Assembly (NCBI GenBank): GCA_014802105.1
Contig: JAAVCX010000012.1
Coordinates: 16,738-80,737 of the forward strand
Source: Bacteroides sp.
Lineage (GTDB): Bacteria > Bacteroidota > Bacteroidia > Bacteroidales > Muribaculaceae
Direction: 5' to 3'
Length of the DNA: 64,000 bases
A program made the position numbers and the translations under genes. Below are positions 16,932 through 41,176 of this stretch, one piece after another; position 1 is the stretch's first letter; each line of letters starts with the position of its first letter. The notes under the pieces are model-generated. The model saw only the letters and a program-made list of their open reading frames with translations. It did not search any database and had not been told where the DNA came from.

Positions 16932-17069
16932 ACAATTCCGACAATGAAACCGGCACATTTCATACAATAGATTTGGTACAATCCATACAATGAAACAGGA
17001 ACAATTCATACAACGGATTTGGTACATTTCATACAATAAAATCGGGACAATTCATACAACTGTCCCGAT
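16932..17069 (+). repeat. Upstream array: six 23-bp direct repeats
   Basis: There are six contiguous units of exactly 23 bp, starting at 16932, 16955, 16978, 17001, 17024 and 17047. Each begins ACAATTCATACAAT (with one to three changes) and ends in a 9-bp variable part that tends to alternate between a GAAACxGG type and an AGATTTGG type. The last unit diverges into TGTCCCGAT, creating an inverted repeat. The array ends 39 bp before the ATPase start codon. A matching six-unit array in the same orientation follows the gene. Confidence 0.92.
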
Positions 17070-17084
17070 TATTTAGTATCTTTG
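17040..17084 (+). promoter_or_regulatory. Inverted repeat and -7 element before the ATPase gene
   Basis: AATCGGGACA at 17040-17049 and its exact complement at 17061-17070 form a 10-bp inverted repeat with an 11-nt loop, made from the last array units. TATCTTTG at 17077-17084 fits the TAnnTTTG -7 element; no -33 TTTG lies at the right distance. The inverted repeat occupies about -40 to -12 of that promoter, so it could be an operator, or an activator site replacing the -33 element. The predicted leader is about 18 nt. Confidence 0.5.
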
Positions 17085-17108
17085 CACTCAACATCAACCG
17101 ATTGAGTC

Positions 17109-18395
17109 ATGGCAAAGTCATCTTACCGCCCACGCATAGCCGACATCATCCTCGAAAAGAAACTTAAGGGAATGGGAGCCGTTCTTATAGAAGGGCCCAA
17201 ATGGTGTGGAAAGACAACCACAGCCGAGCAACATGCCGCCAGCGTCATATTCATGGATAACCCGGCCTCCCGCAACGCCAATATCGAGGCTGCCGAGCTC
17301 GATCCCAACCTGATACTCGACGGTGAAACCCCACGGCTCATCGACGAGTGGCAGATAGCGCCCCAACTATGGGACGCCGTGCGCTACACTGTGGATCATC
17401 GCGACGAGGAGGGTCAGTTCATACTCACCGGGTCGGCCGTGCCCCCCGTCAAAGAGGAGAACAAGAAACGTATGCACACCGGCACTGGACGCATAGCCCG
17501 TCTGAAGATGCGCCCCATGAGTCTCTGGGAGTCAGGCGAATCGTCAGGAAAAGTGAGTCTGAAAGCATTGTTTGACGGCGAAAAACCGAGCGCCGCTAAC
17601 GACACCGAGCTTGCCCGCATAGCTTTCATGACCTGCCGCGGAGGATGGCCGAGAGCCATACACCAAGAGCCTGAGATCGCTCTCGAAAGAGCCTCCGACT
17701 ATTTTGACGCAGTCATCAACTCTGACATCAACCGCACCGACAGTTCGCTCAAAAATCCGACAAAGGCCGCCCTGCTCATGAGATCCTACGCTCGGCTGCT
17801 CGGCTCTCAGGCCCCGCTGACGGCCATCTGTGCCGACATGTCGTCGACCGAAAACACCCCGACCGACAGCCGCACGGCTCAATCATATATTGACGCCCTG
17901 AAACTGATATATGTGATCGAGGATATGCCGGCGTGGAATCCCAATCTCAGAAGCAAATCGGCTATACGCACCAGCGACACACGCTATTTCGTAGATCCGT
18001 CTATCGGCGCCGCCGCTCTGGGCATCGGACCTGAAGATCTGCTGTCTGACCTGCGCACATTCGGTTTTTTCTTTGAAAACCTCTGTGTGAGAGATCTGCG
18101 CATTTATGCCGAACCTATCAGCGGACAAGTGTATCATTTCCGTGACTCCAAGGGTCTCGAATGTGACGCCGTGGTGCATCTCCGCAATGGCAGATATGGC
18201 CTGATAGAGATAAAACTCGGAGGAGACAAACTCATCGAGGAGGGAGCAACCAATCTCCTGAAACTCCGCGACAAGATCAACACCGACAAAATGAACGAAC
18301 CCTCTTTCCTGATGATCATTACGGCCGTCGGCAAATTTGCCTATCAGCGCAAAGACGGTGTATATGTCGTCCCTATCACCTGTCTCAAAGACTGA
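17109..18395 (+). CDS. AAA ATPase with DUF4143-type C-terminal domain
   Basis: A 428-residue protein. The N-terminal ATPase has Walker A GPKWCGKT (residues 29-36), Walker B LIDEWQ (about residues 77-82) and sensor LTGSAVP (about 106-112). The C-terminal half has the DUF4143 arrangement and ends with a restriction-nuclease-like pattern, GLECDAVV then LIEIKLG, in which E/D...E-x-K could be a PD-(D/E)xK site. Proteins of this family are numerous in Bacteroidales and archaea; their role is unknown, and links to mobile or defence genes are only suspected. It stands alone between two six-unit repeat arrays and has its own predicted promoter. Its neighbours are unrelated in function and partly broken, which suggests acquisition as a cassette. 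Confidence 0.88.
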   Translation: MAKSSYRPRIADIILEKKLKGMGAVLIEGPKWCGKTTTAEQHAASVIFMDNPASRNANIEAAELDPNLILDGETPRLIDEWQIAPQLWDAVRYTVDHRDEEGQFILTGSAVPPVKEENKKRMHTGTGRIARLKMRPMSLWESGESSGKVSLKALFDGEKPSAANDTELARIAFMTCRGGWPRAIHQEPEIALERASDYFDAVINSDINRTDSSLKNPTKAALLMRSYARLLGSQAPLTAICADMSSTENTPTDSRTAQSYIDALKLIYVIEDMPAWNPNLRSKSAIRTSDTRYFVDPSIGAAALGIGPEDLLSDLRTFGFFFENLCVRDLRIYAEPISGQVYHFRDSKGLECDAVVHLRNGRYGLIEIKLGGDKLIEEGATNLLKLRDKINTDKMNEPSFLMIITAVGKFAYQRKDGVYVVPITCLKD

Positions 18396-18402
18396 CTTCG
18401 GT

Positions 18403-18540
18403 ACAATTCATGCAATAGATTTGGCACAATCCATACAATGAAATCGGGACAATTCACACAATGGATTTGGGACAATTCATACAATAAAATCGGAACAATT
18501 CATACAATAAAATCAGAACAATTCATACAATGATGATTTG
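18403..18540 (+). repeat. Downstream array: six 23-bp direct repeats
   Basis: There are six contiguous 23-bp units starting at 18403, 18426, 18449, 18472, 18495 and 18518, beginning 8 bp after the ATPase stop codon. All start ACAATTCATACAAT with few changes. The variable ends are AGATTTGGC, GAAATCGGG, GGATTTGGG, AAAATCGGA, AAAATCAGA and a diverged last one. Orientation, unit length and copy number equal those of the array before the gene. Some units contain the short dyad TTCAT-ACA-ATRAA. The rest of the 211-bp gap up to 18606 shows nothing recognisable. Confidence 0.92.
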
Positions 18541-38933: not shown

Positions 38934-38972
38934 TAGTATAGAGTATAGAGTATAGAGTATAGGGTATAGATA
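38934..38972. repeat. TATAGAG heptamer microsatellite before asd
   Basis: Four near-perfect copies of the 7-bp unit TATAGAG, with a fifth variant TATAGGG, lie directly upstream of the asd start codon. The same heptamer occurs at 41097-41176 and, in shorter form, at 23486, 41011 and 59536. Length changes could alter asd translation or transcription. Confidence 0.85.
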
Positions 38973-39027: not shown

Positions 39028-40833
39028 TTAGAGGTACAATTCGTCGATGAGCGAGGCATATTTGTCGCTGATCACCCTACGCTTGACCTTGAGGGTGTTG
39101 GTGAGCTCGCCACCCTCCATCGTAAATTCCTTGGGCAGGAGCGAAAAACGCTTGATCTGCTCGTAGCCGGCAAGTCCTTTCTGAGCCTGCTGTATGCGTT
39201 CCCAGATCATATCCCTGACCCGCTGATCGGCCAGCAGGGAATCGATGGAATCAAAGTCGATACCTTGTGCTGAAGCCCATTCCCTGACTGCTTCATAGTT
39301 GGGCACGATGAGCGCCGAGACAAATTTGCGGCTCTCGCCTATGACGGCAACCTGCTCTATATACTTGTCCATAGTCAGGAGGGTCTCGATGACCTGAGGG
39401 GCTACATATTTGCCGTTGGAGGTCTTGAAGAGGTCTTTGATGCGGTCGGTGAGCCACAAGGCCCCTGAGTTGTCAATGAAACCGGCATCGCCGGTGCGGA
39501 ACCATCCGTCGGCCGTAAAGGCCTCGGCGGTGACCTCGGGCTTATTGTAATAACCGCGCATCACCGAGGGGGCTTTGACAAGCACCTCGTTATTGTCGCC
39601 GATCCTGATATTGATTCCGGGCAGAGGGGTGCCGACCGAACCGATCTCAAAACCGACAGTAGGGAAGCAACACACCGTGGCCGTGGTTTCGGAGAGACCG
39701 TAGCCCACGGTGAGTGTCAGACCGGCCGAGTCGAAAAACTCTACCATCTGCGCCGACACGGGGGCGCCGGCAGTCGGGAAGAGGTTGGGCCGGTCTATGC
39801 CGATAGCTTCGCGCAACTGGGCAAACACCTTTCTGTCAAAGAATCGATAGAGCATCTCGATATGGGCAGGGGCTTTACGTCCGAGACGGTGATATTCTAT
39901 ATTGCGCTTGCGGCCTATGCGGAGAGCATACCTGACCACACTCCGCTGCAACGGGCTCATGGACTCGATCTTGTCATTGACGGCGGTATAGACCTTCTCC
40001 CAGAACCGCGGGACGGCACACATACAGGTGGGTCTCACCTGTTTGATAGTGTCCTGTATGGCACGCGGGTCACGGTTGACGGCCACAGTGGCTCCTACAC
40101 AAAGACAGACGTATGTAAAGCCTTTCTCAAAGATGTGGCTCAAGGGAAGGAATGCCATCGAGACATCCTTGTCAGTGAGCATATCGAGACGCTCGAAGTG
40201 GGCCGGAAGAGTGAAATTATAACACGAATGAGGCAGAATGGCGCCCTTGGGTTCTCCGGTGGTACCCGAGGTGTAGACCAGGGTAGCCAGATCGTCGGGC
40301 GACGACTCGTCGGTGCGCTTGTCGACCTCGGCGACGATTTCAGCTGTGGCCTCAGAGCCGAGACTGATGAAGCGTGCCCAACTGAGAGTAGTGGAGTCGG
40401 AGGGATCAAGCTCAATAGGCTTGATGACTATTATATGCTTGACTGTGGGACACTGGGGGAGCAGACTGCGGGCTATCTGATACTGGGTGGTATTGCCTAC
40501 AAAGATCACCGAGGCTCCACAGTCGTTGACTATATAGCTGACCTGATCGGGCGAGGATGTGGCGTAGATCGACACCGAGGCGGCGCGGTTGCGATAGCAG
40601 GCAAAGTCGGTAATGATATTCTCAACCCTGTTGGCCGAGAAGGTGGCCACATTGTCAGAAGGTCTCACCCCCAGTCTACACAAAGCCCGAGCAGCCTTGG
40701 CTACACTCTCGTCAAGTTCCCGCCAGGTGATGTCATACCATTTGGCCTGCTCGTCCTGGCCCTTGAGGGCTATCGAGTCGGGGCGCTCCTTGGCCTGACG
40801 TCGGGTCAGGGAGGTGAGTATATTTTCGGTCAT
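39028..40833 (-). CDS. Long-chain fatty acid-CoA ligase (AMP-forming)
   Basis: A 601-residue ANL-superfamily enzyme that activates fatty acids to acyl-CoA. The P-loop TLVYTSGTTGEPKG, the YGLSETTATVCC motif and the GWFRTGDAGFID region with the hinge segment DRIKDLFKTSNGKYVAPQ, cut by its loop, are present, along with the Lys-containing C-terminal part. The ATG at 40833 (MTENILTSL) was chosen; upstream in-frame sequence overlaps the -7 region. It is separated from asd by the heptamer repeat. Confidence 0.94.
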   Translation of the reverse strand: MTENILTSLTRRQAKERPDSIALKGQDEQAKWYDITWRELDESVAKAARALCRLGVRPSDNVATFSANRVENIITDFACYRNRAASVSIYATSSPDQVSYIVNDCGASVIFVGNTTQYQIARSLLPQCPTVKHIIVIKPIELDPSDSTTLSWARFISLGSEATAEIVAEVDKRTDESSPDDLATLVYTSGTTGEPKGAILPHSCYNFTLPAHFERLDMLTDKDVSMAFLPLSHIFEKGFTYVCLCVGATVAVNRDPRAIQDTIKQVRPTCMCAVPRFWEKVYTAVNDKIESMSPLQRSVVRYALRIGRKRNIEYHRLGRKAPAHIEMLYRFFDRKVFAQLREAIGIDRPNLFPTAGAPVSAQMVEFFDSAGLTLTVGYGLSETTATVCCFPTVGFEIGSVGTPLPGINIRIGDNNEVLVKAPSVMRGYYNKPEVTAEAFTADGWFRTGDAGFIDNSGALWLTDRIKDLFKTSNGKYVAPQVIETLLTMDKYIEQVAVIGESRKFVSALIVPNYEAVREWASAQGIDFDSIDSLLADQRVRDMIWERIQQAQKGLAGYEQIKRFSLLPKEFTMEGGELTNTLKVKRRVISDKYASLIDELYL

Positions 40834-40893
40834 AAAACTATTATGTTTACCTCGCAGAATAATCAATTGATAGTCGACGAGGATATTCGGCTA

Positions 40894-41096: not shown

Positions 41097-41176
41097 AGTA
41101 TAGAGTATAGAGTATTGGGTATCAGAATCCCTATACTCTATACTCTATACTCTATACTCTATACTCTATACTCTAT
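41097..41176. repeat. Back-to-back heptamer repeats forming a hairpin after secA
   Basis: On the left, about 2.7 units of TATAGAG (41097-41115); on the right, about 6.5 units of its complement CTATACT (41131-41176), with a 15-bp spacer. The two blocks can pair as a hairpin, and the right block can pair in several registers. It begins 16 bp after the secA stop and may serve as a transcript end. Confidence 0.85.

Follow-up and report, generated by a model that had tools for sequence, protein, structure and literature searches.

The locus described here lies in a contig of Bacteroides sp. (JAAVCX010000012.1), of which a stretch of 64,000 nucleotides, hereafter the window, was analysed; coordinates are counted from its first letter. 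A gene on the forward strand (17109..18395) encodes a protein of 428 amino acids with the domains AAA_14 and DUF4143, corresponding to PDC-S01 of the PADLOC collection and modelled as a STAND ATPase with a winged-helix domain and a PD-(D/E)XK nuclease domain, and on each side of this gene stands an array of six 23-bp direct repeats. The upstream array (16932..17069, forward strand, 138 bp), whose period of 23 is kept in homologues, has units starting at 16932, 16955, 16978, 17001, 17024 and 17047, ends at 17069 and is separated from the ATG at 17109 by 39 bp. Its units consist of a 15-bp core like TACAATTCATACAAT, in the register of the homologues, and a variable spacer of 8 bp. The downstream array (18403..18540, forward strand), with units starting at 18403, 18426, 18449, 18472, 18495 and 18518 and its end at 18540, begins at the eighth base past the stop codon (18393-18395); it has the orientation of the upstream array and a nearly identical unit (14 of the 15 core bases), the final nine bases of the sixth unit being degenerate. 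The original prediction, made from the letters of this DNA, had described both arrays with their unit number, length, orientation and spacing to the gene, all of which the coordinates confirm, and its observation is correct and more general than the sequence alone could reveal. The 46-bp alternation of unit ends that it proposed is visible by eye in upstream units one to five and downstream units one to four and fails in the last ones. The 14-mer ACAATTCATACAAT, with up to two mismatches, was found 12 times in the 64-kb window, always inside the two arrays, with a mean of 0.17 in shuffled sequence and none of 100 shuffles reaching 12. In the genome to which the window belongs (G000), a metagenome-assembled genome (MAG) that is 77% complete, a two-unit pattern with up to three mismatches gave five matches, all five being the window arrays. 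A CRISPR array was ruled out, as the units are contiguous, differ in about eight drifting bases and are not interrupted by unique spacers of repeat length.

Two Pfam families, PF13635 (101.4 bits, cut-off 28.1) and PF13173 (51.6 bits, cut-off 27), were found in the protein above their gathering scores and were the only Pfam matches; NCBIfam gave none, and the search of the PDB by sequence returned no relative (best E values of 0.15 and 0.39). The best match of a PDC-S01 hidden Markov model to the protein (P0001) had an E value of 6.6e-59 and covered residues 5-426. The STAND core, made of nucleotide-binding, helical and winged-helix domains, was recognised, and in 85 sequences residues G34, K35 and D79 were invariant and E80 was kept in at least 90%, which places the Walker A lysine and the Walker B acid. 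The matches to this core span residues 1-305 and the nuclease domain residues 310-428 (18036..18392, forward strand), leaving no room for a separate sensor domain, and a sensing function could be built in. The nuclease domain shows the PD-(D/E)XK fold with its catalytic residues, E351, D353, E367 and K369 being invariant. The structural models suggest that the protein is an NLR-like STAND ATPase fused to a putative nuclease.

The occurrence of the array was determined in homologues drawn from related genomes and from named contigs (the best 80 of a longer list), for which the best upstream lag among 15-40 was recorded and a lag-23 score of 25 was set as threshold. Of the first 103 full-length homologues, 89 had an upstream score at lag 23 that reached this value and 101 had 23 as their best lag. 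Control segments taken from these loci reached the threshold in 1 case of 433. In the extended set, 23 was the strongest upstream period in 193 of the 199 homologues with upstream sequence; two partial duplicates (L186_0 and L259_0) are included in the 202 genes and in the 200 downstream counts and not in these 199. The hosts belong, by record title, to Bacteroidota, Bacillota, Spirochaetota and Lentisphaerota, with one Actinomycetota. Upstream arrays held from 2 to 9 detected units (174 arrays), and the equal copy number on the two sides of the window gene, first taken as meaningful, is incidental. When each of the 103 loci was scanned with its own consensus, the 300 bp on either side of the gene contained 285 unit copies upstream and 16 downstream, with no inverted copy in these flanks, two single inverted matches elsewhere and one match in all for the reversed-unit control; the upstream orientation is fixed by construction, as the consensus was taken there, and the downstream orientation is independent. 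The checks that had been proposed were carried out in part, by the survey of homologues above and by a search for the repeat elsewhere: as in the window's own genome, the units in G368, G456, G522 and G019 were confined to the loci of the gene (13 and 5 matches), and seven other genome scans gave no match for a foreign unit. Generic two-unit patterns with 0-1 mismatches recovered just 20-79 of the 202 arrays and were not used for whole-genome counts.

The period is not general in the more distant DUF4143 proteins; among their open reading frames (ORFs) listed, only L178 passed the lag-23 threshold. In L178, a relative of the GPKAVGKT type, the 23-bp repeats run into the assumed start codon. 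Direct repeats of 22 bp with unrelated sequence lie upstream of other DUF4143 genes (L156, L118 and L031). A separate DUF4143 group (L174, L172, L177 and L179, also L169, L181, L175 and L167) carries TTGAGTA direct repeats spaced by about 22 bp immediately 5' of the start codon; in this group, picked by sequence motif, at least two copies were present in 4 of 6 ORFs versus 2 of 71 others. Self-recognition may therefore extend beyond the present clade.

In register, the consensus unit reads GCCAA, a variable centre, GAA and an A-rich spacer. Within the 75 arrays with at least four copies, agreement with the consensus was 88-96% at positions 0-13 and 65-89% at positions 14-22. Between loci (133), positions 2-4 and 12 were nearly fixed (95-98%) and positions 5-11 were variable, with a major base in 32-72%. 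A centre that is uniform within an array and differs between loci is as expected from a locus-specific reader. A fixed DNA template defined the unit register independently of the protein, and the identity of the reader is indicated by the co-variation of unit and protein. The top partial correlation with the unit (0.26) was obtained for protein windows over residues 241-264, which in the AlphaFold model form the helix-turn-helix (HTH) of the winged-helix domain (helices 237-245 and 254-266); the highest value was 0.11 for six decoy DNA stretches and 0.116 for 60 label shuffles, and the spacer of the unit gave 0.08. The signal is concentrated in residue 255 (codon 17871..17873, forward strand; arginine in the window protein), at the start of the HTH recognition helix; this residue predicts positions 9-10 of the unit: aspartate occurs with CC in 46 of 49 cases, glutamate with CG in 17 of 25 and lysine with GG in 15 of 21, and asparagine with C at position 9 in 16 of 16. 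The chemistry fits, an acidic residue being paired with C at position 9 in 72 of 74 cases and lysine with G in 16 of 21. With one representative per cluster at 65% identity (34 clusters), aspartate was still found with CC in 12 of 13 cases and lysine with GG or AG in 6 of 6. Mapped on the protein tree, residue 255 changes 36 times, and in 28 of these cases positions 9-10 change on the same branch (5.2 expected, Fisher 2e-22), the next best of the 323 columns reaching 3e-5; residue 255 came first in each half of the data. A second column, residue 347 (codon 18147..18149, forward strand; serine in the window protein), predicts positions 0-1, with lysine and GC in 84 of 94 cases, serine and CA or TA in 17 of 21, and arginine mixed; over all the data it was the top-ranked column (2e-10, followed by 5e-5), as it was in the first half. 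It lies in a loop beside the invariant D346 of the nuclease domain, which therefore probably also touches the unit. At this residue the window protein, with S347 and unit bases TA at positions 0-1, fits the rule. This co-evolution suggests that the reader of the array is probably the gene's own protein. The co-variation of amino acids with bases, seen in the HTH as well as in the nuclease domain, strongly supports the earlier proposal, in which the repeats serve the ATPase or its nuclease-like C-terminus as recognition sites.

The arrays also show a phase relation to the promoter. In the window, the sequence TATCTTTG (17077..17084, forward strand, counted by hand) represents a Bacteroidetes-type -7 promoter element, the consensus of which we take to be TAnnTTTG, and just 5' of it a perfect 9-bp inverted repeat, ATCGGGACA and TGTCCCGAT (17041..17069, found by eye, without strand), surrounds the last upstream unit. 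The distance from the start of that unit (position 0 = 17046) to the -7 element (17077) is 31 bp by hand count. For the homologues, 174 of the 202 genes were kept in the distance sample and 114 of these had TAnnTTTG at 15-70 bp from the last unit start, with a background density of the motif of 2.9e-4 per bp. The distances at these 114 loci pile up near 20, 30, 41, 52 and 63 bp, about one helical turn per step. When each 65% cluster was represented by a single locus (n = 40), phase concentration was 0.73 at 10.5 bp (p ~5e-10) and the best period 11.0; at period 23, R was low (0.17-0.28), as the distances fall into two classes that differ by half a unit. Distances to the ATG showed no phasing. 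Repeated boxes adjoining a promoter, a feature of the MalT type, are thus present.

Arrays on both sides of the gene, as in the window, are the minority arrangement, about nine in ten loci having no downstream array. The downstream threshold was passed by 20 of 200 rows. Two of these are duplicates, L284 and L315 each contain a block that differs from the unit of the locus, and in L262 the array is that of the tandem neighbour; with L113, which lies below the threshold and was added by eye, 16 two-sided loci were obtained, several of them close kin (L244, L248 and L249; L256, L257 and L274) and not independent. In these 16 loci the downstream unit equals the upstream unit of the same locus at 18-22 of 23 positions in direct orientation (8-14 of 23 if inverted), and positions 9-10 agree between the two arrays in 15 of 16. 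In the tandem pair at L262 the neighbour gene has a different unit (13/23). In L012 (genome G019) and L097 a second array follows 1.1-1.5 kb downstream, past a reverse-strand ORF, and L341 (1788-7750) contains three arrays of similar unit, with a HicA-type toxin gene and an HTH gene between two of them. Genes for an ATPase_2 protein and a Fic protein lie beyond, and an IS200-like transposase gene adjoins the outer array. We interpret the minority downstream arrays as additional sites at which the same protein would bind.

Taken together, these results make it fairly probable that the protein binds its own tandem array cooperatively, as a promoter-coupled operator, and so controls its own transcription. 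The 23-bp units would be the DNA-binding sites of the NLR-like STAND ATPase-nuclease itself, each made up of a site of 14-15 bp and a drifting spacer of about 8 bp, with the unit edge (positions 0-1) read by the nuclease-domain loop and the unit centre (around positions 9-10) by the recognition helix of the winged-helix domain. Two to nine such units, about two helical turns apart, would align several protomers beside the promoter, and transcription of the gene would thereby be controlled cooperatively, the array coupling the oligomeric (ADP/ATP) state of the protein to the output of the gene. In the simplest model, drawn by analogy, the protein would act at its own promoter as MalT does at its boxes. 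It may repress at rest and be released by an infection-related trigger, as might suit an antiphage role, and activation as in MalT is equally compatible.

Several results weigh against this interpretation. The downstream array has no obvious promoter role, in the window as elsewhere, and the best upstream lag differed from 23 in 6 of the 199 homologues. The promoter phasing comes from the TAnnTTTG-bearing loci alone (114 of 174), and part of it is unit counting, since a degenerate last unit that is missed shifts the distance by 23 bp, about two turns. The co-variation sample comprises the 133 of 202 genes whose units fit the fixed register template, divergent units falling outside it; all branches count equally in its Fisher p-values, and the ranking versus other columns is the better control. 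In that ranking, residue 347 drops to fourth in the second half of the data and positions 5-8 have no comparably strong partner column. Arginine at residue 255, as in the window protein, is seen in just 7 of 133 cases and is loosely coupled to the unit. With Foldseek, the nuclease domain alone gave a best PDB match of 4.1e-3 and none at E of 0.001 or below.

An alternative, which we regard as unlikely, sees in the arrays the two ends of a small mobile element, at which the ATPase-nuclease binds and cuts to move the array-gene unit; array, gene and array of the window would then form the full element, which recombination between direct repeats could excise. Consistent with it, the unit is shared (18-22 of 23) by the two arrays of each of the 16 two-sided loci, which also agree in orientation, and a nuclease-domain residue co-varies with the unit. 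Genome G059 holds two copies that are 99.6% identical over 1391 bp, comprising the gene and 122 bp upstream, and that diverge 6 bp past the stop codon, although one of them lies 99 bp from the end of a MAG contig and has a weak array (score 23), and no clean target-site duplication was seen in the one copy pair compared. The cassette ends or excision suggested in the original prediction are weakly supported, with about nine in ten loci lacking a downstream array and this single near-identical pair sharing no more than the gene and 122 bp upstream. In some compared pairs, similarity also breaks off near the outer edge of the upstream array, at a distance of about 10 bp or less (L342/L343/L344), or just past the stop codon (L345/L346), whereas it continues through the flanks in L222/L224 and L337/L339. 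Selection on array and gene would give such edges too, and mobility was ranked below autoregulation on this ground and on that of a tree mostly ordered by phylum. An element of this kind is further disfavoured by the presence of the upstream array alone at most loci, by the absence of inverted ends (downstream arrays are direct in 16 of 16 two-sided loci), by the few phage or viral-contig matches and by the promoter phasing, which it leaves unexplained. The edges themselves have local peculiarities: a 188-bp direct repeat (96%) lies in L218 (3320-3507 and 5003-5190) beside the left edge of the second G059 gene copy, the one away from the contig end, and the ends of synteny, at 94-96%, in L342-L344 and L345/L346 adjoin repeat-rich variable DNA. 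Among the 35 relatives searched, the flanking histidine kinase reached 54% identity at best, a distance that precludes comparing an empty site base by base. Rampant transfer between phyla was rejected, the tree (81 rows) showing 7 phylum changes where the least possible is 4. Matches were found in 7 of 50,697 phage records, in two viral-contig loci and in 242 of 72,556 plasmid records, all of the latter below 60% identity and six of the best 30 listed above 40%; this scarcity of phage and plasmid matches indicates a mainly chromosomal gene, and an origin in phages or plasmids was rejected on the same sparse matches.

A scaffold or safety catch, by which the array nucleates or sequesters the nuclease at its own locus until displacement in infection frees it in active form, is likewise improbable as the whole explanation. 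Because the loop next to the invariant D346 varies together with the unit, the array may serve as a dock for the catalytic domain; some arrays are distant from the promoter, and STAND proteins assemble into multimers (PMC4381067). The arrays are nevertheless nearly always upstream and promoter-phased where this can be tested, which a mere scaffold does not need. Binding by a regulator other than the ATPase seems very improbable: a small separate repressor, as in the case of RptR, can bind short direct repeats at a defence promoter (PMC12255303), but here the co-varying residues fall in the ATPase-nuclease's own HTH and nuclease domain, and the units occur only at these genes in the genomes scanned (gene neighbours were viewed in a few loci). 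Tandem repeats are known to expand and homogenise, and the arrays might on this general ground be selectively neutral slippage repeats travelling with the gene; we give this hardly any credence, as the period of 23 is kept while the sequence changes, base-residue co-variation is concentrated in one column of 323, the arrays are in helical phase with the promoter, and the core is kept while the spacer drifts. Returning to the autoregulatory operator, it is a tentative thought, in our estimate rather doubtful, that the array is more than that: a scaffold with docked catalytic domains, a setter of dose, a hold that keeps the nuclease poised and harmless, and a sensor of infection, with a residue-base code private to each lineage. 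Such a code, linking residue 255 to bases 9-10 and residue 347 to bases 0-1, would if true insulate paralogues from each other.

The protein can be compared with several known systems. PDC-S01, the PADLOC candidate for a single-gene phage defence combining an ATPase with PD-(D/E)XK, has models that the window protein matches; one description ranks it fourth by frequency among the defences of prokaryotes (PMC12988326), another puts it first among individual loci in rumen genomes (PMC13356809), and the available portions of both descriptions mention neither repeat arrays nor self-recognition. MalT is a STAND switch that multimerises, binds boxes cooperatively and contacts or recruits RNA polymerase (PMC4381067). 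The STAND switch and the repeated boxes by the promoter are common to both proteins, whereas in the present one the co-varying HTH is that of the STAND winged-helix domain, a nuclease is present and the target is its own gene. The C-terminal DNA-binding domain of MalT is of the LuxR type; no such domain was found in the window protein, in which Pfam finds AAA_14 and DUF4143 only and the C-terminus models as a nuclease fold. The archaeal STAND ATPases PABY2304 (2qen) and SSO1545 (2fna) align with it over the ATPase and winged-helix part only, and we know of no array for either. The nucleases McrC, Can1/Can2, Card1 and NucC are driven by McrB or by cyclic oligonucleotides, and to our knowledge none of them reads an array beside its own gene. 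In the match list that contains them, 2czr, a TBP-interacting protein that is not a nuclease, scores 9.4. RptR resembles the present case in a direct-repeat operator at a defence promoter and in autorepression, and differs from it as a separate 9-kDa repressor without nuclease or ATPase, acting on three 9-bp repeats with a 6-bp palindrome (PMC12255303). A screen of open-access papers by title and start of abstract, subscription papers and preprints lying outside it, found none on such arrays. What is new here, as judged from sequence comparison, is a predicted STAND ATPase-nuclease with a dedicated, co-evolving and promoter-phased DNA array.

PDC-S01 is reported to be among the commonest candidate defence genes in prokaryotes, and its descriptions give no mechanism in the portions available (PMC12988326, PMC13356809). 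If a broad PDC-S01 clade reads a dedicated array through two residues, a ready-made binding site and a specificity code predicted for its natural homologues would be at hand. The same relation, if true, would offer a handle for telling whether these NLR-like nucleases regulate themselves through an operator, assemble on a scaffold or move as a unit, and one protein would unite the bacterial STAND transcription factors, such as MalT, with the STAND immune receptors.

The surroundings of the gene are ordinary, with RuvB and a polysaccharide flippase upstream and a histidine kinase and a sigma-54 response regulator downstream. Repeats of other kinds were noted in the window. An 84-bp tandem repeat with a 21-bp sub-unit (1155-1693) lies within the ORF 720-2252, and two mutually inverted heptamer arrays, AGTATAG and its reverse complement CTATACT (38935-38970 and 41131-41176), flank the gene of an AMP-binding enzyme on the reverse strand (39028-40866).
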